Assembly: GCA_963669155.1 (NCBI GenBank)
Contig: OZ022576.1
Coordinates: forward strand, 2,128,246 to 2,192,245
DNA from: Arbacia lixula
Taxonomy: Eukaryota > Echinodermata > Echinoidea > Arbacioida > Arbaciidae
DNA length: 64,000 bases
Direction: 5' to 3'
Part shown: positions 11,034 through 43,271 of the stretch, piece by piece
How positions within the stretch are numbered: position 1 is the first letter of the stretch
How the letters are laid out: every line of letters begins with the position of its first letter
The notes under the pieces: generated by a model
Seen by the model: the letters and a program-made list of their open reading frames with translations, nothing else
Databases searched by the model: none
What the model was told of the DNA's origin: nothing
Position numbers and translations under genes: made by a program

Positions 11034-11136
11034 TCACAGATAGCAGATGTGTCTCTCAGATGTGCTTCCAATGGACGAGCCCAAACTCTTGTTCTCGCTG
11101 GACTCATTGTTGTCATCGTCCTCAGAACTTTCATAC
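11034..11136 (-). CDS. SNCAIP: Synphilin-1-like, coding exon 13 (C-terminus, stop)
   Basis: Acceptor TCTGATAG is followed by [20 protein letters not shown].. and TGA at 11036-11034. This acidic, serine-rich tail of 33 residues joins exon 12 through a split TGG (Trp). Confidence 0.75.
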
Positions 11137-14100
11137 CTATCAGAATACAAGAGTCAAATGAGAGAGCGAAAAAGATAAGCAACATTAGAACAATGACCCA
11201 TCATCATTTCCTTCAACTATTCATGTGATTATGGGCATAGTATTGTACCAATACACATGAATGTCTCACATGTCAGGGCAAAGTTAAAAATACAAAAAAT
11301 GTCATGCAATGATCCTGTTTAATTATTCAAAGAATGAGAGGAGAGAATAGATGTTAAACTCTTTGTTTTGTTGTTATTCGCCACAATAATAAGTTTGATT
11401 GTTCAATCTGTTAGAAAATAAGATAAAGAGGACGGGGCAGGACTTGAACCTAAATGTACTGCCTACCAAGCAGCGACACTACCCACATGGGATACTGCTT
11501 AGTTAGTGAGAACGCAACAACAGTGACAACACTTACATGCACAAACCAGTGCAAAAAGCAGAACAGCAACAACAAAGCTCACATGTCAAATGGTAATCAA
11601 TTCAACACAAAATTAACTATTAAATTGGAAAAATAAACTTTGATGCTTGCCTTTTTCACACGTACCTTCCATTCTCAGAAAGTCAACATATTGATATCTA
11701 TTTTATCAAAATCATTACAAACCCACAAATACTTACGATGGATCGTTACGTGATCATGGTACAATCATATGGAATAAATTACCCCCAAGCGCAAATGCTG
11801 TTTACTTCTCTACAGTATCAAAATGCCTTTAAGTCTTCCTAATAAGCTATAATATATGTTCTTTAAATGTTTCCATAGTGAGAGTGTACTAATACATGTA
11901 AATACTGTCTACTGTAGATAAATAGTAAAACTTTCGGTAATATCATGTGGTTGTATTCTTTCGGATAATTGACCCACTTATGGGGTGAAGAAAGGAAAAG
12001 GAAAGTGAAAAAGAGGAGAGGTGATTTTTTATATCTTATAACACATACACAAGACTATTTTTAGCTTTAGTTTTCGGTGTTTTAAACCAAAAATAAATGG
12101 GATAAAATGGAGGTAGAAGAGGGTGGGTGGTGATTGAGAGTTGTGAACTAGTCACAAAGCTATAATATATTTTGTGTTTGGTTTTTTTATTGCATCACCA
12201 TACCCCAGTTTGTATACACTATTTTTTGTATGACTCTAAATTACACATCATATTTAATTGACTGTTTTCAATCATTGTCGTCTTCTTTCTTTACCATGTC
12301 TCATGTGTAACTGACATCTTTATTTAGTACTGTAAAGTTTCTTGCATTATTTGTGAATGTTTGTATGTTTAATGTTTGGATCTGTACTGACAAGGGCCCT
12401 TGAAAGGACAGTACCGGTACTGAAAGGGCTTACCCTGCTCAAATAAATCAGAAATGAATCAATAAAACAATACCAAATTTTAAATTGGTGCATGAAGAGA
12501 AATTGTATCATTTTGTATTTCATCATTTTATATCATAAAAGGCCATCCCCTTCTCAACAGAACAGAAATGGGGAGGATTTACACATCTTTACTATGCACA
12601 CTACTGCGCTGAAGAGGGGATTTCCTGTAACAAAAACACACTTTCAGAAGGACTAAGCCCTACCAGTCTTTAGAAACTGAAAGTCCAGTGAGATGTTATA
12701 ATTGAAGAGTGAGGTTGGAGATTTGAGGTCAAAGAACTTATAAACCCCTCATAATGCATCCTGCCCTGAGAGTTTGTGCAATCAGCAGTGAGGATCACTT
12801 ACAGTAATATGTTTGCGCACGGATTTCTTCTATCTATAAGAATAGCAGGAATGAGAGCAAAAATAACAAGACTGGTTCTATTTTTCTTTGAAAGTGAGTA
12901 TGAAAAACTTGGAAATCTGAACAGCAGTAGGAATCCGACACATGTACTTTGCATGGTCAAATGTGATAGAAGATTTGCCACTCCAAAAATTGCAACAGGT
13001 TAATTAGTCACTGATGTAATCTATTTATGTGTTTACAACAAAGTTATATACATGTACATGTGGGTACACCTTCTAGCTAAGAAGAATTCAAGATCCCATA
13101 AAAGTATGCATTTGTCACAAATTTCCCCAATATGTATGTAGAGATGGCTGTAGGAGAGCAAACCAGCACCACAAGAAAAGCATGTCTGCCTCCCTCTATG
13201 TCTGTTGACATACAGTCACACAATAGCATCCCCTTCCCTCCTCCCTCCCTCCCCCCCCCCCCCCCCCCACCCACCCCTAATGGTCTTCCTACATGTACAT
13301 GGAGGCAGAAGCCCTCTCACCCAATCCATGCTGGCAATCAAAGCAGATTAGTGCGCTCAATAACAAAAGAATGCTGGCCACACAATGAAGAGGCAGCCTG
13401 AATCAACCCCAGTTTTAATGCTATTGTGTCGCCATTGAAGCCCAGGCAATGGCCAGCGAATAAACAACCTCTAATGCAAATAGGCTCCCCATTGTCACAA
13501 TGCTGGCACTTGTAATGGGGTAACCGTTACATCTGTTACTCTTAGTCAGGCACATGCCTGTATGCATACCTAGATGGGGAGGAAGTTATGTAGGGGCAGG
13601 TAAAAACAAGAGCCAAAAACATGTTTTGCTCAAGGCTAAGAGAAAGGAATTTCTTAACAAACTTAACAAAATCAATAGACTTCCTACTCTTACTTCTATT
13701 ACGTTGATAGCTACACCCTGCATCCTGGCTATATTACTCTTTTGGTATTGATCTCAGTAGTCTGATGATAATGCTTACTTTAAACAAAAAAAAAACTTAT
13801 CCCAAAAAAAAATCAGTACCAAAAGAATCAGTGCCAACAAAATTAATGATAAAGTGTCATCTAAAACATCACACAACACAATTTCTAGGTTTACATTAAT
13901 TTTGTTGCCAAATTCAAAGTCATGATAAAGTAGGCTACAGAGCTTGGTGTACTTGTTTTCTTTTTCTATGGTTTCATTTGATATATATTCACAAATCTTT
14001 CATTTTTTATTTTTTATTTTTCAATGTTAATAACCAAATTGCTTCAGTCCAAATTACATCTATTACACAAGCACAATATATAATATTTTCTAGCATTTCC

Positions 14101-17100
14101 TCTTCCTACATTATTTGTTTAATAGAGATAAGATAATTAGAGAACATTCAAAGAGGAACAAAGATGAAAGGGGAATACACCTGCTCTATGCTCCAAGCAA
14201 GATTTATTCTATAATTGTGATTATCTGTTCTAGTAGTGCTCTTGACAACAAAGCAGTTTTGAATAAAAATCCCCTAATGGCCTCTTCCCAAAGACTAGAG
14301 ATGAATACTCAAGAGGAGATCCTCATACCAAGATAGTTGAGAACCCCAAAAGAAAATCCATAAATAACTCAGTGGTTGGGGCAATTAAGCAAATTCCATC
14401 CCAGACAATTCCCTGAACCAAATGGGGATATTGATTGTGTCCTTTCTTCATCTTATTCTTTCTTTCTGGCTGACTGGAGTGTCTTGGATGGATTCTTGGT
14501 GCCACTGGACCTTTGTACTGCGCACCAATGCACTTTTCTTGGCACTATGCCTTATTAATGCAAGACTGTTTCTCACTTGTAAATTGACAATTCAGTCTCG
14601 GCGTAGCACTATAATTAAAACAATGAAAAAGGGCGTATCATTTAGAATTTTCAAAGGCCAAAACGCACTCGTCCAGAATGGAGAAATTAAATCTCAGAAA
14701 ATTCATCTTCGCATATCTCTGTTATTTCCCATCAAAACTGATGTTACTTTCACGATGGATGTAGACATATCACATCATATTACATACACTACAGCTAAAA
14801 GGAATTGGCATAGGGAAAGGGAAAGGGAAGAAAGGGAAGGAGCCGCAGTTTTAAACCGCAGTATATTTTGTCCAGTTCAGCATGAAACAGGATGCTTTAG
14901 CCTAAAAAGCATCTTGTTTCATGCTGAATCGGACAAAATATACCACGGTTTACAACTGCAGCTCCTTCCCTTTCCTTTTCCCTATGCCAATTCCTTTGAG
15001 CTGGAGTGTATGAATTTTCAATAAATATGATGCAGTACTAAATTCATGGAACTTACACCATGGATGTAGACATATCATATTCAAATCATCTATGAATTTT
15101 CAATAAATATGACGCAGTACTTTTTTTAATGAATATTTTTGTGATTTGATTGAACGAGCGAAGAGGTTTCCATTTTTTCCCGACACAAGTCTGCCACGCA
15201 ATGAATCTTCAAATGATTGACATGTTACTGAAGTTTAGACCCCAGACTCACTCTCCACATAGTTTCGCGTTGGAGCAATCAGGATTTCTGACAAATTTTG
15301 AGCAAAGAAACCTCAAGACTTTTTACAAAAATGCTGGAGTTTTACATAATTACGGATGAACAATGCGCAAACGCAATGCACACCGCGTGTCAGGTGATGT
15401 GCATTTCCCGCAAATGTAGGCTTATCATTGTCAAAAGCTAACAAGATTCCACGTTCATGACCCATATGTTTGTGTAGGTCTTAAAGTAAGTTTAGGCGTA
15501 GTTTGTTTATTTTGCACAATCTCTTTCAATTTTGGCACTGATCTGTATGTTCTGCACTGAAATACTCTAGCAAGAAGATGTATTAGAAGTATTTGAACAA
15601 GCTCATGGGCAAATAACCTTCCATAATTTTGGAATACATCTATTCTTACACAGTTACAGAGGCATGTATACCCATAGATGGTTCTGATGTAGTCATGTCT
15701 TCACTCATACATCAGCTCACTTCTCGATTGTATTGCAAAGTAGTCAGGTTTATCATGTTTATACAGTCGGGCTAAGGCAATCGCAAGACACCACTGCCTG
15801 GTGCACTGGCACCTGGATCGCATACCACATTTGTTGTAAGCCATATGCCTCCCGTACCGCACCGGTCATATGCTGCCTGCCTCCCGTACTGAACCCATCT
15901 CGTCTGTGGACTACACCGAACTTCACTTCATGCTTTATGTTGCTCATTTTTACCCTGACTTGTATGCAACAGCAAACATTTCATTATAATGCACAACGTG
16001 CTTATAAACACTAACAATGCACTCAGCAGGTTGCTGCCTTTTAAGGGGTTACACATTTTCATTATCTACATTATTTGTTAGGCAATATAAATTGTTCACT
16101 GTTTTTGATGAAATCACTCCCTACCAGCCGACATACATACTTTTGAAGAGCTCATTTGCAAAAGAGGTTAGATCCATTTTTCATCGAATTTGATTTTTTT
16201 TTTGTCTCAATGTATAGATTTTAAGTAGCTCTGTGAGATAATACCAAAGAAAAGTTGAAATTCCCATTAAAAAGTTATCAAAAATGGCAAAGAAAATCAT
16301 TTTGTTTTCAGAAGGGGTTAGATCCATTTCAGTTTGTTGGCAAAAGGGGCTAGATGCACAAAGGTAATTTTTGGAAAAAAATATTTTAGAAATATGAAGA
16401 CAGGTAGATTTCTTTCATTCCCAATTTTATGTTCACATGATAGGATAGTATATCATAACAATTTAGTTTCGCATAAGAATATTGCAATATGGGAGAATGA
16501 AAAGAGTAGATTTTCTCAGAATGGTCTAAAGTGGATCTAACCCCTTTTGAAAACAAGCTCTTCATTTGTAACATGGTATTTTATTCAAATCAAATCAAAT
16601 CAAATCCCCTAACTGCACAGTAGAGAATTATGACATTAACCTGTACCTAGTAATTCACTTTTAATAGGTTCAATGCACTCCAAGTCTTTAAATTGTTGCT
16701 CGTTTTCAGACAAACCTTTGACAACCTTTGTAGTTATACTGGTTATCATTAGTTACATGTACAGTTTGGACAAAGTGAATACAATTTATTGGCCAGTGGC
16801 TGAGTTAGGTTTTCCCGGAATTGAGTAGGAGTGTTACACGGTTACCATTAGTAACATGTACAGTTTGGACGACGTGCATATTATTTATTGGCCAGTGGCG
16901 GAGTTAGGTTTTTCCCAGGATTGAGTAGGTGTGTTTCATGGTTCGCCATGCTAAACCATTCCCAAGCCAGAGCCTCCTACACATAAATGATTTCATCATG
17001 ACTCAATGAAAGCTAGATCAATAAGATCTCCCCTGGGGCCCCACGCCACATTCTAGCATCTCCTAAGACTTCCCTCAAGGGCATTTGCTGAGGGCTCTAT

Positions 17101-20100
17101 ATCTGCAGAGACCAGCCACCGGTAATCAGTCTATCGACTTGAAGCATTGTGGCACTCCCTCGCCATTCTTTGCAACAATCCTTTCCCATTGTCTCCTATA
17201 ATTGCAGACAAAAACGGGCTTGTTCTCCACAATTGCACGCTCCTCAAAGTACCATGGTCAGACGCACTTGTGATGTGACATACTGCCTGCTTTATTGTAT
17301 GGGTAATGACAAAGGGATTCTACTCAACTACTGAAACAAGACACTCATTCTCAGAAACAGAAATCAATACATTCCACAATGAACATACATGTAACACTTT
17401 TGAATGCACACTGAGGCACTGCACCAGTAATGTATTCTTGACCTGTACTATGACAAGTGTGCAAATGCTCATTCTTAATGACTAAATGCATAGAATTCTT
17501 GACTTGCAATGCAATTGAAGAAACTTGACATAACCTGAATACTAATCTGACCTTCTTCATCACATTCTTTCATGGTAGATTTACACCTACCCTGTACATG
17601 TTTTCTTTTTGCATAATATTTTTGTTTAAGTAAAGCGGTTGGTATTTCAAACATCTGTTCATCAATTTTCTACTTCAGATTTCATTTGATTATCACATCA
17701 CTCTGTCCACATTTCCCAATTCCCACATCCTTGTTGCTTTGTTAAATGTTCTTCATAACTCGCTAACAAACTATTTATTTAAATGTATAAAATGTGAGGG
17801 TGGGAGATGAAAAGTGTCACATCATACTGGTTCATCTTAAAAATCGATAGTATACCATACAAGTAATAAAAAATATGTACTAATATGAAATTGTTTTTTC
17901 TAGGTCCCGTGATACCAAATAGAAATGTGTCATCTCAACTGAAAGTACTGTAGATGTACATTTGATATTTATAATGGGTTTTCACAACTATTCCAACATC
18001 AATCATATTCCTGTGCTACAATATCCATCCAGTCACATTGTGAGAGTTAATACTTCTCTGAACATGGACCACTTAAATTGAGTTATACTCATTCCTCTGA
18101 ATTTAACCACAGAACCATGCAATTGTAAAAATGTTGACATATTTTACACTTTGCCTACCTTTTGAAATATATCAAAGTGATAAGGACGTCTTACATGGGG
18201 GCAGCAGTGGTACATGTACATGTATATAGCAGCATTTACAAGGCCTATCAATGAAACCCAAAAGCAAAATAAGGGTTAGAAATATTAAGGTTTCATAGGA
18301 ACTTCCCTTTAAGAGCTAGATGCAAAGAGCAAAGCAGAGAGACTGTAATAAAAAGGACCACTTGAAATGCATAAAAGATAAAGAATGCATTAAATTAATG
18401 TGCATTCCTTTCTTTTCATTTACATATTCATATCAATTGAAATGTTTATATCAACTGGTGGTGAGGCAAAAGGGTGAGGTATATTCTTATAACTATAGTG
18501 CAAAGTACATGTTTTTATGTGTGGCAGGATGAATCTAGAATATGATGTCACAGAGAAAGCAGTAAAGTAGGACTTGAGATGTAAACCACACTTAATTGTT
18601 TTCAGACACACACGAGTAAGGCTTCATGCATAACACATGGACACTTAGATCTAATTGAAGTGGAATGGGCTGTAGTCTAGTTGTAGAGATCTCCAGATAT
18701 GCTATACAGTGTGTCCCAGAAAAAAGGAAACCGAGATTCTGTGTTATTTCTCTAGTTGACTGAAAAAAAATCATAAAATATTATACACATCATTGGAAAG
18801 CACGGTGTTTCTTCTTTCATTTGACACCTCACATGATAGATAAGAGTCATGCATTGAGGAGCAACAGGTGTCTAAAAAATAATTGTCAAAATCAAGTTAC
18901 GCAGGACATATGGTCAAGATTTGTAAGGAAGCATCGACGTAGTGCAAACACCATTCATTATTCTGCGCAAAACGTTTTTGACATCGAGCACTTGTAATTG
19001 CTTGAAATCAGTCATGCGTGAACAATTCATCATGAATTTGGTACCAAACGAAAGAAGATACTTTACTCTCAATATTGCTGTTATTTTTATAATGATATTA
19101 TATTTCATGATTACGTTATCGACCTCAAAAAATGGGTTTTCTTTTTTCTGGGACACACTGCATATTGTGGGTTTGGTGGGCTTTAAGAGTCTAGTCTGCA
19201 CACTGTGGTCTGTTTCTCTCCCATGCACTCCAGTAATCACAACCGAGTCTGAGCACAGAGACTAGCCACCCTTCCTCCTCACACCTTCTTCACATCACAT
19301 TGGGAGAGGGAATGAAGTATAAATGTATAGTCTACATGGTCAGACTTGAATGTAGCCTACTCACAGGGAGAGGTATGTGTGGTTTGCATTGAAGAGAGAT
19401 TAGTATCTGAGATTCTGTGAGGATTACATGTGTAAGAGCACTCCTAATTCCTTTCATGTTGACCACTCAAACTAGTTTCTTCCTTATAATGACCATTAAA
19501 GCATGTGGTTACTTTTGGTGAGATGTTGGAAGGTTTGTGGGGAAGGAACTCATGCATTGCGATTTTAAAAGCTGATACCTAGATGTAGAATGCAGTGGTT
19601 AAACAAATTGAAGGATGCATGCAATTCAAAGTGTACCTGTGTGCGGATTAAATAGAGAACATTTTTCAAGAAAGTTGTTTGGTGTTTCATATGTGTACTG
19701 TGTATGGATGATGTGAAGTATGGCACAATTCTTTGTGACTTCCCCCATGCAAGGGAATGGAAGGAATATTTCCATCTTGATCAACACTTTGCTTTCTATA
19801 CTAAGCAAGCACAGCAATGTTGGAGAAAATTAAATCAGTGCATAAAGAGTAAGCAAAATGAGATGATGCACCATGGAAAATGCAAAATGCATCTAGAGCT
19901 TTCCTGCGAGTCTTTCCCCATACAGAGAAATAATGGAAATATTCTGTCCTCCTTGATTCCTGACCAAATTACATGTTGATCTACTAGTCTAGTGCAGGAG
20001 TAATAATCAAGTGCATAGAGTGGTACTCATTCTGGACACAGTTATTATCAGCTGAAATGATAATTAGCAGCCCTACACAACCCTCAAGATTGGCACTAGT

Positions 20101-22504
20101 AGGTTTCTTTAACAATTTTAAATATGAAATCACTCTCACTTCACTTTCCTGAGGGAAGAATATCTCTCCTTTAAAGCAAAATTAAAAAGGGTTCTTTTAA
20201 GCACTAATTGAAGTAAAGCTCAAGGATGAATGTAGATCTGAGTAGAGTGAATGAATACGTACATGTAATGTTTTACACTTCAAGAGACAATGGAATAGAC
20301 CTTCTCAAGCATGCTAATCTAAACAAAAGGTTTTTTGTTTCCTAATAATCACATGTAGCTATATATCAAGAGGCATCTTGCATCAGAAATTTAAATTGTT
20401 AACATTTGTGAGTAGGCACTACATGTAAGTACTGTCTAAAGTTGAATAAAGAACTGCCCAGTACGTGTCAATTCCTTCCAGCAAGAAATTAAATTGAACA
20501 GACCTTTTCACCTCTTATATCACAAGTGTGCATACCCTAAGGAGCTAATACACACGCAATGTATGAACAAGAAGTTTTGTGTTTTTTAATTACCTTTTTT
20601 TTTAATGGGCTTTCAGTGAAAAACATTGGACTCGGGATGGAAGGGGGGGGGGTGCATTTTGCCATCCTCCCTCCACTTCTCAGCCCAATATTCCATCACA
20701 TAAGGCCCGATCAATATTTTATGGACATCAAGGCACATGTAAAAATCAGAGCTGCATGATTTTTAAAAAAAAATCAAGACTTCATTTGAAGAATTCGTCC
20801 ATGCAAATTTGATGCATATTTTTTTTTTATTTCAAACATACATGTAGGTACCAGAGTAAATCTTTCATTTTTAATTGCAGAGTAGCAGTCAACAATAATG
20901 TATTTAAAAACTTAAAAACTTTAAAATTAATGTTAATGAATTTTATTGTTTGATTAGCTTCCTTTTTTTTTATGACTCCACAATAAAGTTGGCGGATGGT
21001 ATTATATTTCTGGGTTGTCAGTCCGCCTAGATCTCATTTACATGATAACTAAAAAATTTCTGCATTTTTGAGCAATTTTTGGTCTGACATGCACATATAA
21101 AATGTTACGTAACTTTGGAGCCGCGTACCCCCGTGTTGCTAATTTGATTGAGACTTGAAGGAAAAAAGTCATGAAACGTCGCGGCGCGATCTTTACCCGT
21201 TACAAATTTATTGCAAAAAATGTTGAGGGGGGGGGCTGTTTTTTCTGACATGCACATATAAAATGTTACGTAACTTCGGAGCCGCGTACCTCCATGTCAC
21301 AAATTTTGTCTTTAAAGTTTAGTGAGACTTGATGGAAAAAAGTCATTAAACATCGCTGCGCGATCTTTACGCATTGCAAATTCATTGCGAAGAATGTCGA
21401 GGGGGGGCTGTTTTTGCAACCCCCCACCCCCGGGCTAGATAGGGTTAAAGGAAACAAATGCAAAAACTTGAGAGGATAATTGTAAGCAAAGTGTTAGACA
21501 AGAAGGTACCATTTATAATGAACTTCAACATGGAATTCATAGGGAGGGCAAGTCAATGTGAAAATAATCGTACAGTATCATTACTCAGCATGGTCAAAAT
21601 GTTCGTATTATAATTCTTTGTTCTAACTGTATTTTTTTGTTCTGAACTACATGACCTTATCTCAAGCACCTGAACATATGGTTTCATACCAATCTACATA
21701 TAGGCAAAGAAAACACTAAGAAACACAAAGAAGTTCTCATGAAACAATATGTTTTTGCAATGGTCACAAGAGAAGAATAAAAGTTTTCTGTATCTTACCA
21801 GAATCGGTCTGCTTCCTCATCTCCATTGAGTAAAGAATGCTCCAGACTATCAGCGCTGTAACTCTATGGACAGAAAGAAAAAGACATTCGTGTGGAAAGA
21901 GTTCACCTCTTACTGATACGATTACATATTTACCAATAGATAATTGACCATCTATCAATCAATACATTATTCTTGTTTGTTTTTATTGCAGACCATGTTT
22001 GTTGGTTCTAATCAATAGAGCTTACATCTACTTGAATGAGGCATTATGAACAAAAAGCTTTGTTTGTTACACGACTGAGATACATACAGCTCATAAGAAG
22101 CATACGCATATGTCCATTGAAAAATCACAAAATATTACAACATATAAGGTATCAATCAAGTAATCATAAAGACATGAATGTCATGAACATGATAGATCAA
22201 GGAAGTGTGAGTTTAAGATTACAATCTCTTGTCAAAACCAATATGGGTTCATTTCAAGTCCATCATCATGGTTAGTGAAGAATGTTGTAATACACACACA
22301 CTTATCCACTCCAAAATTGTAGTTTTTAATTTGTGTTCTAAACCCTATCCTTTTCATAAATCCAACACAGACAGCATTAAATTTTCAAAAGGGAGCAAAT
22401 AATATTAATTAATACCGAGTACAAATGAGGTTGAATGGAGTTGATTGGTAAAGGGTCTACAGGGTAGTGTATACTGTAGCTGAGAGGGTTGGGTTGATTC
22501 AAGT

Positions 22505-22535
<31 letters not shown>

Positions 22536-25500
22536 TACCTTAGCAGACTGCAGGTCAGAGCCAGGAGGAGGTGGGCTGTCTTCAGGAGGGGGTGATTCCG
22601 TCTCATAGTCCCCGTCATCATCGCTGCTGTAGTAGTTCACTCGGTATTCTCGATGACCGAGCAACACAGGGTTGTATTCCACCGGAGGTGCGTTGCTCCC
22701 CTGCTCAAGTAAACCAGATGCATTCTGCTCGCGCTGCTGGCGGTGCGATTCAGACTCGTAGATCGGAGAGAGGTCACGGCGCCGATATGTGGCGTCGGGG
22801 GCGGGGCTCGAAGGCGACGCGTCTTCATCAAGGGCAAACTTGATGTGACGGTCACGTGACTTCCGGGTGCCCTCCCCTGTGCGGCGCGTGCGGTTGAGGA
22901 TGCCCGCCCGGCGCTTGTACATGGGACCGGTGTCAGAGTGATCCGTGTCGGACCAGGACGACGTGCTACTGATACTTGAGTCAGAATTCAGCCGCGGGTG
23001 GAAGGAATCCACGTCAATGTCCGACTGGTGGTTTGTCTGAGGACTGTCTGGCGTGGCGCTGTCCCCGCCATCGGGGGTGTGGTGGTGTGTGGGGCGGAGC
23101 TTCCTCATGAAACCCGGCACCATCATGCCGCTCCCTCGGCTGCTGGACACTGGTCTATGCAGGATGTCGTCATCATGGTTCTGGTGCGACGGTGAAATCT
23201 TCACACTCAGTGGGCTGTTCTCACTGCTGTGCCTCACATGCTTCACGTTACTCACACCGTTCACAGCACCATCCTTGCTGCTGGATTTCCGTAAGCGAGA
23301 CAGCAGCGGTTTCTTCCTCGAGAAGTTACTCCCACTCCCATGCCAGGAGTGGGAAAGGTCTTCGCTCAGCTTCTGAAGCTTGTCTTCATCAAGATCTTGT
23401 TTGGACCCCTGGTCCCTCGTTGCATCCCCAGAGTTGATGACGTCAGGGAGGGCGCTCTTCATCCACATGTCATGCGATAGTTCCCCCTCAGTCTTACTGT
23501 CCTTGGGATGCACCGTGGCCGGTGCACTATCGCAGCCATTCACCCTGGCAGTGTACACACACTCTGTCGGGGAGGGGTTTGTTGGGGTTGCATAGTCTCG
23601 CTCATCACTCACAGGTACATAATACTGATTACTTGTGGAAGACTTGCTATCTTTTGTTGCATCCATTTGGTTATTTTTCCCTGAGATTAATTCGTTCAAG
23701 TGTCTTTTCACTTTTGATGCCAGGTCCTCCTGCTCCAGATCCCGTGCCTTGTTCACAGGACCTCTTTTATCATCTTCAGGTGTCCCTCCACTTGCACTGC
23801 TTGCAGCATCCCTGGGATAACATTGATCCTCCCATGAAACCTGCTTCTGTACTGTTGACCTCTTAGACCCCATTGGACTGTTCCACATGATGGAGAGGGA
23901 GGAGGAGGAGGAGCTGAGGGATGTGTAGCTGCTGCTAAGGCTGATGCTGTCCTGTCTCTCAGACAAGGGCACATTCATGACGGAGGGACTGGCAGACCGC
24001 TGCAAGCTCACCTCATTCAGTCGTTTCCTGAAATGAAACACAACATCAATAAACTCTTACCATCTGTTAAACTGTTGTATTACGAATAAAAAAATGCAAA
24101 TGTAGATGTGTATCAGTTCACAATATTCCTTTTTACATATTACATTGAATCCTATAAGGTACTAACAATGAGTAGAGGTCAACATCACAGTAGAGCCTGA
24201 GATCAACGTCACAGCTGATTGCAATCAAATGCAATCAGCTCCATACATTTATTGCAGTCTGACTGCAAATGATTGCAATCAGCTGTGACGTTGATCTCAG
24301 GCTCAACTGTCATATACAAAATGTGAACATCATATAATAATTCAAACTAAAGAAGTATGACACTGAAATGCTTAGAGAGTGAATGCTAATGTGCTAAATT
24401 CTGAACAGCCCAAAACTTTGGACTCCCATGCAGTCACACAGAATGCTGCACTATTGCACTGATGGGAATTGATGGGGCTAAAATGCACCAACGGCACAGA
24501 CAGGGTAAGTGGGAAGCAAACCAGAGGGAGAAGAGACTAACTTCATTAAGATGGTTTCTCTATTGTATTTATGGGTATCAATGGAGCCAAAATGCAGCGA
24601 CAAGTCACAGAAATGGTTAGTGGACTACAAACTGACCTCATCATGATGAGTGGCTCCATACCCGGTTGCTCCTCCAAGCAGGACCGTTGAGCCGGGCTGG
24701 CCAGCTCCCCCTCCTGCTGGAGCCTGTGCAGGGTCTCCTGGATCCTGGAGAGCTCCCCCTCCTTGGCAGGGGAGGAGCAGGCAGAGGCGAGGCGGGCCTG
24801 CTCCGCCTCCTCCAGGAGCTGTGAGCAGGAGTCCTGCAGCTCACTGGCACGTTGCTTGCACAGCGCTATCTCCTCACTGGAGATGACACAAAGGAGAGCA
24901 GGAGAGCAATAAGGAGGTTTCACGTCTGTATTTTGGATCTTGTTGTCATTGACATTTATATCAATGCAGTGAAACCTGTACATAAAGACCACTTAAAGGA
25001 GACTAAAAAAATGTAGTCTTTATAAGCAGGCGGTCTTATGTATAGGTACTTTAAAAGAGGCTTCAGTGAGAAACACTTATCATGGGAAACAAAACAGTGG
25101 TATTTACAGGCAGGTGGTCACTACACCAGGTTTCACTGCACTAAGTTCAATATTGCTGCATTACATGTGATCATAGTCAGTGAGTTTATCTGTTACAGAT
25201 TACATGTACATGTATGTACATGTAAATCATAAGTCCAATCTATCATTCATTATTATAAAACATAGATTCAAATGATTATTTTTTTACCTCACATAGAAAT
25301 CAAAAGTAAATGCAATTTTCTCTTACTTAAGGACTACATGTATCTCAATAGGTAACCTATTTTGTCACCTTCAAGCTGCAGTGATACACAGGGTCCGTAT
25401 TTACTATCATCACATCATCATGGCGTATGTGAAACGACATGTCCAATATGGGACTGCCCTTAAAACTTCTTGCATGACATATCTTACCACAAAGCATCTT

Positions 25501-27998
25501 TTAAAAAGTTATGACACCTTACTTGGTCCCCTCATGGGCACACCTTGTACGAAACACCATACTAAGGTGTATACAATACTGTGGGAGGGATTTCAGCTCA
25601 CAACCTTCTCATCACACAGCCCCACACTAATACATTGATCCCCAAATCCCTAGTAAGAGTAATCTACTTATTATACATCTACAGTAGGTACAATGACTTT
25701 CCAGATCTGCAGAAAGCCGAGTGAATTGAATTGAATTGAACTGAATTGAATTGAAAGCTTTTATCAATTGAGTTTGATGTACAATTATGACATGTATACA
25801 AGTTTGACATACAATTTACATAGAAAGATTAATACTATTTTGAAAAAACAAAACTTGCAAAATACCCATGTTTAAATTGTATATAGTGACTGCAGTGGTT
25901 TTGCAATGAACTCATCCAATTCTAAATCATCAAAAATGGGTACATGGATACTATTGCACTTATGACTAACATTATTTGGAAAAAAATAAAAGAGAGTGAA
26001 AAAAGGATGATTACATTGCTCAAACATGCAAAGACACTTAATACATAGCTATCAAAAGTTTAGACAAATAATAATGGCTGTACCCTATACATGAGGAATG
26101 CACATTTTTGATACTAGGTGTAAAAAAAAAAATCACCTGACACTTCTGAAAAACAATACAAAACCAGACACGATGAAATCAAGCTGAAACTGACACACCA
26201 TAAAGTCAAATGATACCAAACCATCAAATCAATGGAAAATTTGTCCTGGCACTGGCATCTTAAAGTTATGAAAGTGGGTTTGTGACTGAACTAAAGTAGA
26301 GCAATTGGAGTTCAGAAGTCAGTAGTCAGCTTCTTACTCTACACACATGTGTCAGTTACTTCCATCTGCTTGAACTGATATTCACATTTATGATGTTCAC
26401 AAGCATAGGTATAAAAGTTAATGTATTCAAAAGTGTAGTATGTTTATGTTGTATGATCACATTTGTGCCAAAGTTCATTGACCTCTGACTTCAAATCTAT
26501 CAGCCAAGTTTCACTGGATGATCCATTCCTGTCATTAGCTGAGATTCTAGTTAATCCAAAACAATCTCTGCAGCAACATTGGATGAGAGTCAACAACAAG
26601 CAATATTTTCATTAACCCTCTTGGTACCAAAGCATGAAGATACAATCAATTCATAACATAGTGAATGAGCCCATGGTAATGAAAGGGTTAACTTATGAGG
26701 TAAACATTAAACAGCACTTGAAACTCACCCCAGGTCCTCGGCCGGTATGTCATCGGCCGAGCCAGCTCCTCCAATCGCCCGCTCCCTCTGCCTCTCCCTC
26801 TGCTGGTGCATGTCATCAATCCTGCGGACCAGCAGGTCAGTCAAAGCCTCATATTGCTGCCTGACCTGCTCTACCCGTTGCCTGGTGTCCTGAGGCCCTG
26901 CCAAGGCCGCCTCATCCTCTCGCTGCTGCATGCGCACCAGAGCCTCGCTACAACCGATGGCCTGGGGATGGGCAATAGGAGCGACCGGGTACCCGGAATG
27001 TTATCACTCGCTGCTCAACCAATGTGGTAACTAGCAAAACGGACATGGCACACCCATACAAGTACATAATATATACTATATATATATATATATATATATA
27101 TACCTAAATACAGGTATATGTATAATATATACCTGGAATAAGTTCAACATGCCAAAAAATCAAGATGGTAAAATAAAATCTAAGAGTGTACATGCAAACT
27201 CATTCAAAAATGTCATCACTCAAAAGGTTCCACTGAATTACATGAATTAACTGCCATTCTATCTTGTTAGCTGTTACATGCAATTCTTTAATTAATACAC
27301 TGTACATCTCAAAAATATGAATCCTGCACACAAACAGCTGCTAAACATTACTTACATCATCAAGCCTGGCCTTGAGTTGAACCTTTTCTTGATGATACCT
27401 ACAATATCAAAAATAAAATCGATATAACAGAAAATTTTAACTGCAAAATCAGGGCCAGAAGCAGAGAATGATATCTCCAAACAAAAAAACAAAAAACTGA
27501 TGGGTTTCTAGAAATAACGCATAAAGTAGATTTCTTGCATTAAATGAAACTACAAAGACTTACAAAAAACATGAAACAGGAGGGAAAAATTGTATGTGAT
27601 GCATCATTTTAATAATATTTCTTTTATTTGAATCAACTGATATGACAAATATGGATTTAAAGGTAAGCACAAAAGGAAAATAAAGCTGAACAACCACATC
27701 AATGTCAACACAGACAAAATTGAGTGGCTGAGCATATTGCAGTAAGACGGATAAATACATGAAGGCAAGTCAAGTACATGTACTTGAACATTTTGCTATG
27801 TACACCATCAGAGAGGCAAACTTACTCTCTCAAATCTCTCCGGAGCTGGGTGACTTGGTCTGACAGAGAGATGCAGGTTTCCGTGACAACTAAAAGCTGA
27901 GCACAGGTGTCGTGTTTGTATTTGGTTGCTAGGCTGCAAGGTGTATGCCTCTTCCCATTCACCATGGTAACGTCACAGTTGAACTCCACTAGCGTCTA

Positions 27999-28063
<65 letters not shown>

Positions 28064-28108
28064 GGTATATATATATATATGTATATGTATAGCATAGTAT
28101 ATAATATA

Positions 28109-28156
<48 letters not shown>

Positions 28157-31100
28157 TATATGTATAGCGAGGTGGAGAGACAGAAAGAGAGGGAATCAAT
28201 CTCCTGCAACTACCATAGAATATTACAGCTCTCCTGGTTATGCGCACGATGGTAATACATCTATAAGTAGTTCTCCTTACCTCAACAGTAAAAATGATTG
28301 GAGAAACTGAAGCAGTTGAAGCAAGTTTTGAATTGTATGATAATTGTATAGTAATTGAATGATAATTCATAAAACATTGAACCATACATATTATCATTAC
28401 AAATAGTAATACTGTAAAGACAAAAAACATCTAAACTTTGAATAGCAACACAAAATAATGTCATTTCTAATAGATTAAAATGCTTGGGAGGCCGTGTAAA
28501 TTTCATTTTCACAATAAATCCAAGCGATATTTATCTTCCAGTATAGTGCAATTAATTATGCTTCAAAATATCTCCTTTGTTTAAGAATAAAAGAGTTACA
28601 GCAGCACACAAGAAATAGATCAAGGAAAGGGAAAGAGAGCAAACTGTCCCTACCTGCACACAAGTCAGATGCCCGTGTCTCGCGGCAAGATGAGCAGGCG
28701 AGTTGCCATGACGATCAAGACAGTCAAGATTTATACCTGTGTTCAGCATGTATTGAAGCAACCATCTCAGACACGGCTCCTGGCAGAAGAAAAGACCCAA
28801 ATCACCAAAGACGTTCAACCATTATTAAGCAGCAGGTCAACAAGAGGATTTTCTTAAATGCTAGCATTGATAAATCCTATGAAATATTGTGCTGGTATTA
28901 TATACGTAGCTCTGACAAACATGATTTCCAATACTTCATTTTTTAACAATGAAAGTGCATCTTCCGTTTTTTCTTAGAAGGAATTAAACCATTAACTATA
29001 ACTTCTTTTATTAATAGTTGTTCAGTTATGTAGAAAAATTAATGGACAAAAAAATACAGGTCGTGAAATATGTCACAAAATCTATAATTGATTTGTACAA
29101 AATGTGTGTTACCCATTAGTAATAACTTGTACTTCTTTGTTTTGCAGTAGCACTGAGAGGCTTATCGCTTACCTGACCAAAGCGAGCTGCTATGTGGAGC
29201 AAGGACCAGCGGTTGTCTTGTGAGTGGAGCTCAGACTTCGCCTTAGTGTTACTGATCAGCCACTCTACACAGTCAAGTCTTCCATACTGTACACAAGATA
29301 CATACATCAAGTACAATGTGAGTTCTGTAAATGCATGAACAGTTTATCCAAAAATGTGACAATATACAATGTATTTTTAGCTTTCTATAACAGAATAAAA
29401 ACAAAAACATAAATATTTATGCCATTTCAAATTCAAAGAAAATTTACATAAATCTACATAATATCATGATATATACCAGATGTACACTGTGGACCTGATA
29501 GAATATCCCTCAATCATACTTTGCTTTGTATACGACAGTCGTGCCAAGTTATTTCAAAGCTGAACACTTACGTTTTAACTTTTATTGTAAATAGAATGAA
29601 ACATTTATAAATCCTGGATACCATAAAGTTGTCACTCACAAAGTATAGGATATCTGGATCAACATAATAGTAAGTTCCTTCTATCAAGTACCCAATCATA
29701 CGCTGTCCCAGATGAAACCACAGCAAAAAAAAAAAAAAAAGAGTCCTGATTGTGAATGGATTATCTCCTAACACCAGGTTTGGCACACACCCATGGAATG
29801 GCTAATCATAATGGTTGATCTATAAAGAGGATTAGCAATGTAGCAGTCCCACGATCCTTTGAAGGCCATTGACTGCATGGGCTTTGGAAACATTCTGAAG
29901 CAGGGAAATACTTTTTAGTGGGGGGCTACATGTATCTTCAAGTCTGATGTCATTAAGCAATCACCCTGAATCATGTTGTGTGCTCTACCTCATGTGATAT
30001 GGGGGCTAAACCCCATGAGAGAGATGTCAGTTGTCATTCTTCTGCACAGGTTCTGCACATTGTTATTATGGGGAAATTCCTCTCAAACAGTAATAGATTC
30101 ATTATTTCAGTTGCAGAAGAAAGCTGTGCAAATTTGTACAGGAAGGCATTACTGTACTTGGCTTATTCAGCTCTATTGTTTAAAATGTGGAACTTTCTGA
30201 AGTTTGATGACACATTTGCATATTTCATTATTCGCCTTTTATTACTTTCAATATTTATTACCTTTCAATATTGTAAAGATGTTCATGAATATGAGACCCA
30301 CATAGGAAATTCCTGTCATATATAGAGTCACTACAACACTTACTAAAAAATCTGTCTGGTTTTATCTCCCCATTGTTTGGAACATGTTTCCAAGAACCAT
30401 TCGTTCTCATTCTAATTTAAGATTACTTAAAAAATCACTCAAACACCATTTCTTCCAATAATTATTGATACTGCATATATTGTTGATCTATACAAATGTG
30501 ATTCTTTTGTATTTCTTAACATTTTGATTAATAAATATCAGTATATTCATTACGCCCAAATTAAATTTTGATCCTGAGAATTTTGCTCACAATACCCTCA
30601 TCATCATAATCAGCGTTTAAGGTCCGTTTTCCCCACTTTGTGGGGTTAGACTGTTCATTTCCTTGATATGGCTCTCCTCCATACTGTCCTGTCATTTGGG
30701 TCAATGTGGGTAATGTTCAACACTTTCCTGTCTGCTTTGATTGTTTCCTTCCATGTCTTGCGAGGTCTCCCATGTGTGTTCCTCCCAACAACTGTGAAAC
30801 TCAGTATTTTCTGGAGCCAGTGAGTCTCTTCTCTCCTAGCCAAATGGCCATACCATCTCAGCCTGCTCATACTCATAACCTGTCCTATTCTTACCCTGTA
30901 GCCTTTATGAAGTTCTCTTTCATTCCATTTTGTTATGGCTTTTGCTAATGTTTTTAAAATAGATGTCTGCATGTACATGTATGTATATATTTGTTCATTT
31001 TTTTTTTTGTATTTTCATCTTGTAATGGAATGGATAAAACACACAAACATGACACAAAAATGGGTCAATGTCCTTGACGGTACCTTCACAGCCATTGCAG

Positions 31101-33165
31101 CAGGAGTAAAGAGGTTGTTGTTCTCCAGGCTGATATGATGGCCGCACAAGCCTGATGCCAGCCAGCGCAAACTCTCTAGCTTTCCCCGACGGCACAGAGC
31201 GTGGAGAAGCACGTTGCCCTGGGAGTCTCGAGAATCTCGCAAACTTGGGTTGCTTCTCAGGCATTGCTCCTGGAGATTGGACCAATCACAAAATATCATT
31301 ATTGCCGTTAACATTGAATTTGCTTTTAAATCACCAACAACACTAAGAAAAGTAATACAAGTTTAAACTTCATAGAGCACAAACACATTAATAAACAGAA
31401 CAAAGTATGAACACATAATTGGAAAGTTTTCTCACCAAACTTGTCTTGTCCTCTTCAACTGCAAGTTTGAAAACTTTTGCAATTTCCTGATTTTCTCCAG
31501 GCATCAATGCATCCCACCTAGAAGCTAGTGGACCATTCTTCTCATTGTGTGACAATTGAGCACCACTGCCTTTCTGAGTGGGACATCTCATTGCATCAGG
31601 AGGGGTGAGAGATGAGGGATCCTGAGGGGAATGCCCCTCACTGGTCTGATTTCGTCCTAGATTTTTCTCCTCCCTGTGTTTGGTTTTCTCCCGCACTTTC
31701 TGCCGCCTCAGGTCCTTTTGTCTCTCATCCTCACTGCCTAAGCTTGGACTGGCGAGGGCAGTGTTCTTGCTGCGGAGGATATTAGCCACCAGGAGCCGCA
31801 TTCCCTTCATCATCTTGCTGTTCTGCCTGAGCTTGGCACTGCCACTACTGCCACCACTGACACTGCTGCCTTCCCCAGAGACGGAGCTCCCATCCAGAGA
31901 CTCAGAGGCGCTGGAGCTGATGGAGTAGTGGTCATCGGGCAGCCGGCCTGGCGTTCCCTGCGACCCATTGACCGGCTCAGCATCCTCCCCGGTCTGAAAG
32001 TCAGCAATGAATCTCCTGAGCTCCTCGGAGTCAATGTCCAAGGAGACATCTCTGACCGTGCCTCCTGGACTCACAGAGCTGAGCAGGGAGTCCAGCAGGG
32101 ATTCAGGAGTCTCATCCTGACTAAAGGGCGCCCTCAACTGGGTGGTGGGCTGGGTCCCAGCTTTGCCGCGCTTGCCCTTGTGACTACGGAACAGTGCCTT
32201 TCCTGCAATATCACAACATGCCATAGCATATTATGCACTGTTTATGGTAAAATTCATCAGCTCGCACTGATGTCAAGTATCAAAGTGAGGCTATCAAGTA
32301 ACATTACATGTATGCGTCCTTCTTTGCTGATATCTTAAAACAGTATCATTCATCATATTCCAAACCATTATACTGAAATCTCCAACATTTTCATTTAATA
32401 ATTATTTGTGTCATGCTTTTACACAGCCCATGCTACATCAGTCAAGAGCAGTTCCCATTGCCAGTGGTTGAACGGTAGTCCAAATTACCTGTAGCTGGAC
32501 GGTGGTTTTCAGCCTTGTCACTGCTGCCTTGGTGCAGAGCAGAATCCAGAAAGTGCTCCAGGTCATACTCCTCCAAGCGCAGCGATGCCTGAAATAGTGG
32601 TTAACAAACCAAATAGAAAATCTAAATTCATGAGCTCATAGTCACAACAACATAACATCAATAACGGCAACAAGAACATTACTACCAATTTACACACAGG
32701 GCCTCCCATGTGCAAAGTGGTGAAACTCTGCAGGAATCGGCAGAATACCCTACCTATAAAGTTAACGAAAATTAGATTTTAACCATACATGTCCCGAATA
32801 TCAGAGCAGTATCTATTTGTCTTATATCAAATAACATAATGATGAATAACTAAGATACATGTATTTCAAGCTCACAACCATGAAACTTAATTTCTTCAGA
32901 GCAGATTTCTACCCTATTTTTATCAATCAACAGCACACATTAGCACTGACATTGGATTGCACTGCGCATTGCATTCGCATTACAAAAGGCGCGTAAAGAG
33001 CATTGTTACACCATTTACTCTCCAGATGTTGATGTAAAAACCCTGACGATGACAAATATCGTCACATACATTGTATTTAATACATACATGGTAACTTTGC
33101 AGACGTACCTCAGGCGATGATACCCCTAGCAGGTCATCAAACTCAATGACGTCACCATACTCCAT
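11034..33165 (-). CDS. SNCAIP: Synphilin-1-like ankyrin-repeat/coiled-coil protein, complete 13-exon CDS
   Basis: Joined coding exons (minus): 33165-33109, 32588-32489, 32202-31436, 31269-31084, 29286-29173, 28779-28654, 27995-27826, 27398-27356, 26961-26729, 24876-24637, 24027-22539, 21863-21799, 11136-11034. The total is 3693 nt, 1230 residues plus stop, and all phases agree. The ATG at 33165 sits in a good Kozak context (GCCATGG) with an in-frame TAA upstream at 33186. Layout: acidic N-terminus (1-52), Ser-rich basic region (53-308), ankyrin repeats (about 315-480), coiled coil (about 490-670), then a long Ser-rich region and acidic C-terminus. The ankyrin block and the following stretch (TLVEF.., [12 protein letters not shown]) match vertebrate synphilin-1 (family knowledge), a scaffold linked to alpha-synuclein, parkin and SIAH ubiquitin ligases. 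Synuclein binding cannot be assumed here. The 3' neighbour converges tail to tail. Confidence 0.88.
11429..11491 (-). mobile_element. tRNA-like SINE head
   Basis: On the minus strand GTGGGTAGTGTCGCTGC starts a D-arm-like region. A CTGC-TTGGTAG-GCAG anticodon-arm-like hairpin follows, then a box-B-like GGTTCAAGTCC. The cloverleaf is imperfect and has no clear acceptor stem, so this is a tRNA-derived repeat rather than a working tRNA gene. Confidence 0.5.
12325..12468 (+). mobile_element. 3' end of a CR1/L2-type retrotransposon
   Basis: The sequence AAAGGGCTTACCCTGCTCAA followed by AATAAAT matches the 3' end of the decayed CR1/L2-type element at 41.4 kb (AAAGGGCTACCCTGTTTAAAT on its sense strand). 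Only the untranslated 3' part remains. Confidence 0.5.
14785..15010. mobile_element. Palindromic TA-flanked MITE (copy 1, complete)
   Basis: A 226-bp near-perfect foldback. It begins TACACTACAGCT and ends AGCTGGAGTGTA, with arms containing GGAATTGGCATAGGGAAA and GTTTCATGCTGAA. CACT..AGTG ends with TA on both sides resemble Tc1/mariner-derived MITEs. A half copy lies at 35479. It sits inside one copy of a local tandem duplication, the other copy showing the empty site. Confidence 0.8.
15011..15121 (+). repeat. Second copy of a short tandem duplication (MITE empty site)
   Basis: GGATGTAGACATATCA occurs at about 14757 and 15063, and TGAATTTTCAATAAATATGA at about 15011 and 15091. The first copy is split by the MITE at 14785-15010. 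The second is uninterrupted and keeps a single TA at the insertion point. Confidence 0.7.
16145..16563. mobile_element. MITE with GGGGTTAGATCCA inverted repeats
   Basis: The ends GAAGAGCTCATTTGCAAAAG and, reversed from the right, GAAGAGCTTGTTTTCAAAAG pair over about 33 bp. The inner motif AGGGGTTAGATCCAT recurs at about 16313-16331. Non-coding, 419 bp. A (TCAAA)4 microsatellite follows at about 16585-16608. Confidence 0.7.
16741..16940 (+). repeat. Two-copy tandem repeat, about 99-bp unit
   Basis: Two adjacent copies begin GGTTATCATTAGTTACATGT (16741) and GGTTACCATTAGTAACATGT (16840). Both contain TTATTGGCCAGTGGC and GAGTTAGGTTTT. They have diverged by roughly 15 percent. Confidence 0.75.
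18707..19160. mobile_element. Mariner-like non-autonomous element
   Basis: Terminal inverted repeats of 26 bp start CAGTGTGTCCCAGAAAAAAG on both sides with one mismatch. The left flank is TA and the right flank is CA, which could be a mutated TA. CAGTGTGTCCC ends are typical of Tc1/mariner elements (family knowledge). The 454-bp interior has short ORFs on both strands but no recognisable transposase. Confidence 0.7.
21084..21415 (+). repeat. Two-copy tandem repeat, about 161-bp unit
   Basis: The units start at 21084 and 21245. They share CTGACATGCACATATAAAAT, GAGCCGCGTACC, CGCGATCTTTAC and a G-rich AGGGGGGGCTGTTTTT end. The GC-rich patches differ from the AT-rich surroundings, which suggests a repeat family with two units left here. 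Confidence 0.75.
21799..21863 (-). CDS. SNCAIP: Synphilin-1-like, coding exon 12
   Basis: This exon encodes [21 protein letters not shown] plus two bases of a Trp codon. The acceptor CCATAG at 21864 keeps the frame from exon 11 (phase 0). A second AG eight bases further in would give CGC TGA, an immediate stop. The donor is GTAAGA. Confidence 0.8.
22504..22534. repeat. (CA)n microsatellite abutting a splice donor
   Basis: On the minus strand the donor of exon 11 reads AAG|GTACAG and runs straight into a (TG)n tract of about 14 repeats. Confidence 0.9.
22539..24027 (-). CDS. SNCAIP: Synphilin-1-like, coding exon 11 (large Ser-rich exon)
   Basis: This is the largest exon (496 codons plus one base). 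It is serine-rich, with [16 protein letters not shown], basic patches ([15 protein letters not shown]), QVSWEDQ and [11 protein letters not shown]. The last two resemble the RVTFEE-type motif of vertebrate synphilin-1 (family knowledge). It ends in an acidic, proline-rich stretch ([20 protein letters not shown]). Predicted to be largely disordered. Acceptor TTTCAG at 24028, donor GTACAG. Confidence 0.85.
24188..24309. mobile_element. Palindromic MITE in intron 10 of the synphilin-1-like gene
   Basis: Inverted arms of about 39 bp (starting CAGTAGAGCCTGAGATCAAC on the left and CAGTTGAGCCTGAGATCAAC when the right is reversed) surround a 45-bp loop that repeats GATTGCAATCA. Total 122 bp, no coding content. 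Confidence 0.75.
24637..24876 (-). CDS. SNCAIP: Synphilin-1-like, coding exon 10 (coiled coil)
   Basis: Encodes [20 protein letters not shown] and following heptad-like sequence ([21 protein letters not shown]). Phases: one base completes Gly 599, two bases start Arg 679. Acceptor CTCCAG, donor GTCAGT. Confidence 0.82.
25722..25755. repeat. (GAATT)n microsatellite, possible retrotransposon tail
   Basis: About seven imperfect GAATT units. Pentamer tails of this kind mark 3' ends of CR1/L2-type elements. If so, the element lies on the minus strand to the right, but no coding part was recognised. Confidence 0.5.
26612..26691. mobile_element. Very short TTAA-ended inverted repeat
   Basis: TTAACCCTCTTGGTACCA at the left and TTAACCCTTTCATTACCA when the right end is reversed. 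80 bp with TTAA at both edges, possibly a miniature TTAA-type element. Confidence 0.4.
26729..26961 (-). CDS. SNCAIP: Synphilin-1-like, coding exon 9 (coiled coil)
   Basis: Encodes [20 protein letters not shown] and a Gln/Arg/Glu-rich helix ([33 protein letters not shown]), then ADDIPAEDL. Phase 0 entry after CCCCAG, two-base exit before GTGAGT. Confidence 0.83.
27075..27102. repeat. (TA)n microsatellite in intron 8
   Basis: About 13 TA units between exons 8 and 9 of the synphilin-1-like gene, without contact to a splice site. Confidence 0.9.
27356..27398 (-). CDS. SNCAIP: Synphilin-1-like, coding exon 8 (short)
   Basis: Only 43 nt: one base completing Glu, then [14 protein letters not shown]. 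It is flanked by ATTGTAG acceptor and GTAAGT donor. Too short for an ORF scan, but it joins exons 7 and 9 in frame and continues the coiled coil. Confidence 0.8.
27826..27995 (-). CDS. SNCAIP: Synphilin-1-like, coding exon 7 (last ankyrin repeat, coiled-coil start)
   Basis: Encodes [20 protein letters not shown], then [18 protein letters not shown] and LRRDLR, closely matching the conserved synphilin-1 region after the ankyrin block (family knowledge). The acceptor TACTAG sits directly in a (TA)n tract and lacks a pyrimidine tract. The donor GTAAGT is strong. Confidence 0.85.
27999..28156. repeat. (TA)n and (GTATAT)n microsatellite at a splice acceptor
   Basis: A (TA)n block of about 60 bp, an ACCGG interruption, more TA, then (GTATAT)n to about 28156. 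On the minus strand this is the 3' end of intron 6, ending TATACTAG at exon 7. Confidence 0.9.
28654..28779 (-). CDS. SNCAIP: Synphilin-1-like, coding exon 6 (ankyrin repeat)
   Basis: Encodes [20 protein letters not shown] and [20 protein letters not shown], a clear ankyrin repeat ([15 protein letters not shown]). It has 42 codons, phase 0 at both ends, acceptor CTGCCAG and donor GTAGGG. Confidence 0.88.
29173..29286 (-). CDS. SNCAIP: Synphilin-1-like, coding exon 5 (ankyrin repeat)
   Basis: Encodes [20 protein letters not shown] and [12 protein letters not shown], an ankyrin-type helix pair. It has 38 codons, phase 0 at both ends, acceptor TGTACAG and donor GTAAGC. Confidence 0.87.
29990..30460 (+). 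mobile_element. CR1/L2-type reverse transcriptase C-terminal remnant in intron 4
   Basis: Broken reading frames give [25 protein letters not shown] and, near 30370-30450, [14 protein letters not shown] and [12 protein letters not shown]. These match the usual C-terminal end of CR1/L2-type polymerases. It lies antisense to the host gene with several frameshifts. Confidence 0.65.
30640..30940 (-). mobile_element. Non-LTR reverse transcriptase C-terminal remnant (GRPRKTW type)
   Basis: The minus frame carries [36 protein letters not shown] and DRTVWRRAI, the signature end of many RTE- and Jockey-type polymerases. Only the last hundred or so residues remain. Same orientation as the host gene, in intron 4. 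Confidence 0.7.
31084..31269 (-). CDS. SNCAIP: Synphilin-1-like, coding exon 4 (first ankyrin repeat)
   Basis: Encodes [20 protein letters not shown] and [10 protein letters not shown], matching the first ankyrin repeat of synphilin-1 (D.NGNNLLHIA and LTPAG.AIK; family knowledge). It has 62 codons, phase 0 at both ends, acceptor CTCCAG and donor GTACCG. Confidence 0.87.
31436..32202 (-). CDS. SNCAIP: Synphilin-1-like, coding exon 3 (Ser-rich, basic)
   Basis: This exon has 767 nt. The serine/glycine-rich stretch [20 protein letters not shown] is followed by [20 protein letters not shown] and a highly charged Arg/Lys/Glu run. The end ([18 protein letters not shown]) aligns with the segment just before the ankyrin repeats in synphilin-1. 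Acceptor ATTGCAG, donor GTGAGA. Confidence 0.85.
32489..32588 (-). CDS. SNCAIP: Synphilin-1-like, coding exon 2
   Basis: Encodes [20 protein letters not shown] and [13 protein letters not shown], plus one base. The [10 protein letters not shown] core resembles the acidic EHYDLDMDEILD motif in the N-terminal part of vertebrate synphilin-1. Acceptor TTTCAG, donor GTAATT. Confidence 0.8.
33109..33165 (-). CDS. SNCAIP: Synphilin-1-like, coding exon 1 (start)
   Basis: Encodes [19 protein letters not shown] (19 codons) and ends at a GTACGT donor. The ATG has GCC before it and G after it. The in-frame TAA at 33186-33184 rules out a longer N-terminus from this exon. Confidence 0.8.
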
Positions 33166-36116: not shown

Positions 36117-36281
36117 GTTCCAATTGTCCGATGCGGCCACTACTCACGAGAGTAATTTGTAAACAATCTCTTCTCTGTATGACTTGCTCTATTCTTTCCT
36201 TCTCTTCTTGTCTGCTTTCAACAATTCTTAAGCAAATGTTCACGACCATGACATGGTCCATGTGTTGTTCTTGTTTTAAAT

Positions 36282-37325
36282 ATGGATGAAATTGATTTAT
36301 GTTTACATAAAAATGTCCAATGTCGGTATTATTTACCTGACGAGTTCAATTCAGAATTTATTGATAATGAGCATTTTTTCAGTTTATTACATGTCAATGC
36401 CCGCAGTCTGTTAAGAAATTATGAAAACATGCAATTATTATTGTCCATGATAAATATGAAATTCTCCGCTATTGGTATCACAGAAACATGGCTTAACGAC
36501 AAATCTCCCCCCTTATATAACATTGATGGGTATTCTGTTGTCCGTTCTGATAGGAAATGCGGACGAGGAGGCGGAGTCGCCCTGTTCCTATCAGACACAT
36601 TATCGTATAAAGAAAGGCCTGATTTGATATACAATGGAAATGAAATTGATTGCACATGTGTTGAAATTAATATGTATAATAGAAAAAATATAATACTTTG
36701 TGTAATATACAGGCCCCCTCATACAGATAGTAACTCATTTTTGGATAATTTTGATGTTTTATTAGAGCGGATTAATCAAGAAAACAAAGATGTATATATT
36801 ATGGGTGATTTTAACATTGATCTCTTGAGAGAAGAGCACATTCTTAGAAATAAATTTTGTAATATTTTGCGAGCAAATTTTTGTAATATTACAATTGATA
36901 AGCCCTCGAGAATTACGGTCAACTCATCAACGTTGATCGATAATATTTTTACGAATATTGACACGGATTATTCGAAATCTGGTCTTTTGTATAGTGATAT
37001 TTCTGACCATTTACCTATATTTTTCATTTGTGGCGACACACAGAATTCTTATGTTAAGCAAAAAGAACGTAAGAAGAAGCGGAAATTCACACTAGAAAAT
37101 ATATCATTACTCAATGATGATTTAATCACGGAAACATGGGATGATGTATTACTTTCTGCAGACCCAAACATTGCTTATGACACCTTCTGGAATACATTCC
37201 TTTCTTATTTTGACAAACATATCCCCACAATTGAAAAGAAAAACAATAAAAAAATCAAAAATCCGTGGATAACAAAGGGAATTTTCCGTTCCATTAAGGA
37301 AAGAAATTTTTATATAAAAATAGTT
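36282..37325 (+). CDS. Retrotransposon endonuclease domain (5' part of ORF2)
   Basis: From ATG 36282 the frame carries the endonuclease motifs of L1/CR1-type retrotransposons: LLHVNARSLL (near residue 30), GITETWLND, CVIYRPPH, YIMGDFNIDLL and SDISDHLPIFF, followed by NPWITKGIFRSIKERNF. In related elements the protein nicks target DNA to prime reverse transcription. The correct frame is lost at about 37310-37327 by a one-base shift. The same frame runs on to 37553 but is then out of register. The downstream part resumes in the reverse transcriptase frame. Confidence 0.85.
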
Positions 37326-42723: not shown

Positions 42724-43271
42724 TAAAGGGCCCCTGTCATCAAAATATATGTTGACTTCTGTTGATGCAACTTAATATGTATGTAACAAAATCACTAACT
42801 GTTCAATGGAAATGTCTGTCCTATATTTTAATATATTTTTTTTCTCAGCACTGATAAGCCCCTCCCCCAAAATATCCTCCAACTCAAGATCCCCCCTGTG
42901 ACATCATCAAAGGTAGAAATTAGCAGGATAATAGACATAATTTATGCACAAACTAAACATTGCAATGACTACCTGCAAGTGCTTATAATAGCATCACATA
43001 GCTGGCATATTTCTGACGTAAGGAAAAGGTTGTTAGATGGTATTGTGTGAAGACATGTGATGCTCTTGTGGGCAGGTGGAGGTAGTCATTGCAATGTTTA
43101 GTTTGTGCATAAACTCTGCTTATCATCCTGATAATTTCTACCTTTGATGATGTCACATGGGGAATCTTGAGTTGGAGGATATTTTGGAGGCGGGGCTTAT
43201 CAGTGCTGAGAAAAAAAATATTTTAAGATATAGGACAGACATTTCCATTGAACAGTTAGTGATTTTGTTAT
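42724..43271. mobile_element. Long foldback element
   Basis: Inverted arms of roughly 230 bp run from 42784 to 43270. They share AACAAAATCACTAACTGTTC, GTCCTATATTTTAA, TCAGCACTGATAAGCCCC, CCTCCAACTCAAGATTCC-like, GATGATGTCACA-like and GCAATGACTACCT blocks. The left edge may begin earlier at TTAAAGGGCCCCTGTC (42724), typical of TTAA-type ends, but no matching right end is seen. Confidence 0.75.

Follow-up and report, generated by a model that had tools for sequence, protein, structure and literature searches.

Human synphilin-1 binds the Parkinson's protein alpha-synuclein and has been studied mostly through this partner. The locus described here raises the question whether a gene of an echinoderm belongs to the synphilin-1 (SNCAIP) family and, if so, what its product would do in an animal where no synuclein was detected. 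The gene occupies positions 33165 to 11034 on the minus strand of the window, i.e. the whole stretch of 64,000 nucleotides that was analysed. Splice sites were placed by reading the sequence and the exons were then joined, which yielded 13 exons coding for 1230 residues with a single terminal stop. The first-pass annotation had claimed 13 in-phase exons and a protein of this length, and the model was rebuilt exactly: all joins were in phase and GT-AG borders were found in 12 of 12 introns. An in-frame stop lies 7 codons upstream of the start ATG (33165). G+C contents were 0.42-0.65 in exons and 0.28-0.38 in introns, and exon 11 contains 496 open codons, a length reached in none of 1000 shuffles (maximum 264 for the longest frame). 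The features of the gene are as follows (window coordinates; bit scores are those against the human sequence, see below).

33109..33165, minus strand: exon 1, residues 1-19, begins with the start codon (33165)
32489..32588, minus strand: exon 2, residues 20-52, contains a YDL-type acidic motif
31436..32202, minus strand: exon 3, residues 53-308, linker
31084..31269, minus strand: exon 4, residues 309-370, start of the ankyrin block (30.0 bits)
29173..29286, minus strand: exon 5, residues 371-408, ankyrin (38.1 bits)
28654..28779, minus strand: exon 6, residues 409-450, ankyrin (53.9 bits)
27826..27995, minus strand: exon 7, residues 451-506, last ankyrin, then the first part of the coiled coil (49.3 bits)
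27356..27398, minus strand: exon 8, residues 507-521, remainder of the coiled-coil core
27890-27826 (exon 7) plus exon 8, minus strand: coiled-coil core, residues 486-519, with the PF16700 and 2KES matches
26729..26961, minus strand: exon 9, residues 522-598, rich in Gln, Arg and Glu, resembling a coiled coil by eye
24637..24876, minus strand: exon 10, residues 599-678, rich in Glu and Gln, resembling a coiled coil by eye
22539..24027, minus strand: exon 11, residues 679-1175, Ser-rich region
21799..21863, minus strand: exon 12, residues 1176-1196, 65 bases, placed by splice sites and phase only
11034..11136, minus strand: exon 13, residues 1197-1230 and stop, 103 bases, acidic/Ser-rich, preceded by an intron of 10,662 bases, placed by splice sites and phase only

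The weakest parts of this model are exons 12 and 13. Intron 4 contains a fragment (30658-31014, minus strand) resembling, by eye, the terminal part of a protein from a non-LTR element. Elsewhere in the window, reverse-transcriptase-like open frames of non-LTR elements were recognised by eye at 36252-39208 (plus strand) and at 42023-42736, 56308-57745 and 61985-63998 (all minus strand). A single-exon open frame at 58452-59885 (plus strand) encodes a family 10 fucosyltransferase (PF00852, E 7.4e-47), and a frame of 360 residues at 609-1688 (plus strand) displays the repeated tyrosine motifs YSHLNR, YSFLNR and YDYLEA. The latter frame had no Pfam match at E 0.01 and may represent a signalling-adaptor exon.

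The host was placed by the mitochondrial contig of its genome (15,740 bases), where cox1 was matched at E 1.4e-135, with 12 TGA under the standard code. The cox1 frame is open under code 9, and TGA read as Trp, taken alone, also fits other invertebrate codes. The complete order was the tRNA cluster, nad1, trnI, nad2, a 16S-sized gap, cox1, trnR, nad4L, cox2, trnK, atp6, cox3, nad3, nad4, nad5, nad6 (on the opposite strand) and cob. This arrangement matches sea urchins and sea cucumbers but differs from that of sea stars, in which the part from 16S to the tRNA cluster is inverted. By this comparison of gene orders the host is an echinoderm, in agreement with the apparent invertebrate origin noted at first pass.

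The human synphilin-1 used for comparison is a working copy presumed to be faithful, having 919 residues and the coil of PDB entry 2KES at its place. The same length of 919 residues is given in PMC4832246, and the protein of the window, with 1230 residues, is longer. Both share the same architecture, an ankyrin block followed directly by a coiled-coil core: 197 residues aligned gapless with 84 identities (43%) and a score of 172 bits. Identities amounted to 68 of 163 residues in the ankyrin part, likewise gapless, and to 16 of 34 residues of the coil core, which is conserved to the same degree. Profile searches were in line with this organization. Ankyrin repeats were recovered by Pfam Ank_2 at E 3.1e-39, and directly behind them, at residues 489-519, appeared PF16700, the synuclein-binding domain of synphilin-1 (14.7 bits, E 0.026, under the curated cut-off of 27). 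The latter match spans profile positions 2-32 of 46 and leaves the last third of the synuclein-binding domain unmatched. When a query of 74 residues (last ankyrin and coil) was compared with PDB, 2KES ranked third at E 0.016, after two ankyrin proteins whose alignments cover the query's ankyrin end. PF16700 and 2KES are each weak alone, yet both name synphilin-1, and both fall where its coiled coil is expected. Since these E-values were computed over 24,736 models (Pfam) and 177,635 sequences (PDB), a match to one given family in this position would arise by chance far more rarely than the values by themselves imply. The window carries an intact 13-exon gene with an ankyrin block and, conserved behind it, the first two thirds of the coiled-coil domain, in line with the succession of ankyrin block, following stretch and coiled coil proposed at first pass.

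Outside this core the relationship faded. The first 308 residues showed no significant similarity to the human protein (69 of 300 shuffles reached the score), nor did the region C-terminal to the coil (70 of 100 shuffles). Terminal regions thus aligned no better than shuffles and, as judged from sequence, conservation with human synphilin-1 does not appear to extend over the whole length. Both ends look disordered and long, and their dissimilarity was therefore not counted as family-defining. Acidic N-terminal motifs had also been proposed to be common to both proteins, and this was upheld for one of them: the YDL-type motif of exon 2 (human counterpart LEHYDLDMDEIL, human residues 136-165), a weak likeness, was matched by 8 of 500 shuffles, whereas 175 of 500 matched the other acidic motif. 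The Ser-rich C-terminal half was indeed larger than in the human protein, with 711 residues behind the aligned block against 376 in the human sequence.

Genome-wide comparisons bear on the simplest alternative, namely a generic ankyrin protein outside the synphilin-1 family that would be alike only via the common ankyrin pattern. Ankyrin repeats resemble each other and generic proteins such as Ankyrin-1 and designed ankyrins, which share the repeat fold, indeed led the PDB matches to the block. With the human block as query, contiguous ankyrin arrays led the genome search (best 60 bits, identity about 25-36%) and the window gene was absent from the list, 150 of 489 candidates being scored. This is because the search cannot join exons, each of which scores only 30-54 bits as compared to 172 bits once joined. 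The two scores of 172 and 60 bits come from different programs and their ratio is rough, but they indicate that the ankyrin block carries synphilin-1 family sequence beyond the generic repeat. Generic ankyrin proteins further differ by lower identity in the copies of the same genome and by having no SNCAIP-type coiled coil behind the block, where PF16700 and 2KES matched here. The alternative was rejected on the gapless match that continues into the non-ankyrin coil, and we regard it as highly improbable. With the window gene's own ankyrin block as query, four window exons led (128-78 bits); the next place reached 51 bits and no second SNCAIP copy was found among the 150 of 461 candidates scored. 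A search for relatives in viral contigs gave 10 stretches that fit a pattern, none of them a relative. The gene almost certainly belongs to the synphilin-1 family, as the SNCAIP-like label given at first pass implied; it is a genuine addition to a known family and the single detected echinoderm copy of synphilin-1.

Membership in this family turns the question to synuclein. A profile search of the host's own genome gave 0 synuclein matches at E up to 10; because each exon is searched separately, a diverged gene divided among several exons may be overlooked. Indeed, a search of this type failed to recover the gene's own PF16700 domain, which straddles exons 7 and 8, so that the absence of synuclein is soft evidence (genome-wide, PF16700 gave 3 matches of 16-16.6 bits at E 5-8, all under the cut-off and none corresponding to the window gene, an uninformative result). 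PMC4832246 reports no invertebrate synuclein ortholog by bidirectional BLAST. Likewise, a putative SNCAIP ortholog but no SNCA ortholog is listed for Aplysia in PMC8840921, a close parallel in that an invertebrate SNCAIP is present in a host with no identified synuclein. It could be argued that the coil was kept because of a synuclein-like protein that escapes recognition in echinoderms, since conservation of its core matches that of the ankyrin block and the search had limited reach. Given the empty genome search, the bidirectional BLAST result and the parallel in Aplysia, such a protein seems very improbable. The view that the scaffold is older than its synuclein partner fits both the undetected synuclein, within that limited reach, and the Aplysia case. 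A synuclein-binding core kept where no synuclein gene was detected suggests that this binding region first evolved for another job.

One candidate for this job is docking of protein phosphatase 1 (PP1). The RVxF-type pattern [KR]x(0,1)[VI]x[FW] matched twice in the window protein.

23832..23846, minus strand: RVxF-type (PP1-docking-like) motif KQVSW, residues 740-744
22836..22850, minus strand: second RVxF-type motif RHIKF, residues 1072-1076

The human protein has one such motif (RVTF, 815). According to this alternative, the SNCAIP family would be a PP1 docking scaffold, in which PP1 is brought to ankyrin-bound clients by an RVxF-type motif of the disordered C-terminal half. At least two motifs occurred in 58 of 2000 shuffles of the non-ankyrin parts of the window protein, but at least one was found in 464 of 2000 shuffles for human synphilin-1, an ordinary count. 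The stretch SKRxTxQ precedes both KQVSWED in the window protein and RVTFEE in the human one, by eye and in local alignment, and a tighter pattern was matched in 9 of 5000 and 3 of 5000 shuffles; this pattern is post hoc, having been chosen after both motifs had been seen. Alignments around the motifs were no better than shuffles (365, 147, 220 and 318 of 500), the strict SILK motif was found neither in the window protein nor in the human one, and no published report linking SNCAIP or synphilin to RVxF was found in the literature searched. A PP1 scaffold is accordingly a doubtful reading. Less probable still is its stronger form, in which synphilin-1 would be an old PP1 scaffold whose RVxF-type motif (KQVSWED; human RVTFEE) was kept in an otherwise unalignable C-terminal half since before the split of echinoderms and vertebrates, synuclein binding having come later. 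If true, the original job of synphilin-1 would be to link PP1 to the clients of the ankyrin block.

The best explanation as a whole, to which we assign a probability of about 0.55, is that the gene encodes an echinoderm synphilin-1, an adaptor for which synuclein binding would be a later use. The protein would be cytoplasmic, its ankyrin block gripping one partner and its coiled coil pairing with itself or with another helical partner. Ankyrin block and coil would be the two binding surfaces that matter, while the long disordered ends would bear short docking motifs. If so, vertebrates would later have put this older surface of the coiled coil to use in binding alpha-synuclein. As to the partners of such an adaptor, SIAH is a known one of synphilin, and its substrate-binding domain is present in the genome (77.7 and 59.9 bits in two nearby exons). 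In human cells, according to PMC10427715, PINK1 recruits synphilin-1, which in turn brings SIAH1 to mitochondria, the three forming a complex. By analogy, the echinoderm adaptor would most likely recruit an E3 ubiquitin ligase, for instance SIAH, to its clients or to membranes. An older role in ubiquitin-ligase scaffolding had been suggested before; it stays plausible with SIAH present, but the one SIAH-binding pattern that was tried occurred once in the human protein (PVKRVSP) and not in the window protein. We give this ubiquitin-ligase role somewhat less than even odds.

No published report of an echinoderm synphilin-1 was found in the literature searched, although an invertebrate synphilin-1 in a host with no SNCA is already in print for Aplysia (PMC8840921), which limits the surprise. 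The function of synphilin-1 is described as not fully understood in PMC9977059. An animal that combines a conserved synuclein-binding coil with the lack of any detected synuclein may allow the older role of synphilin-1 to be studied free of this partner.
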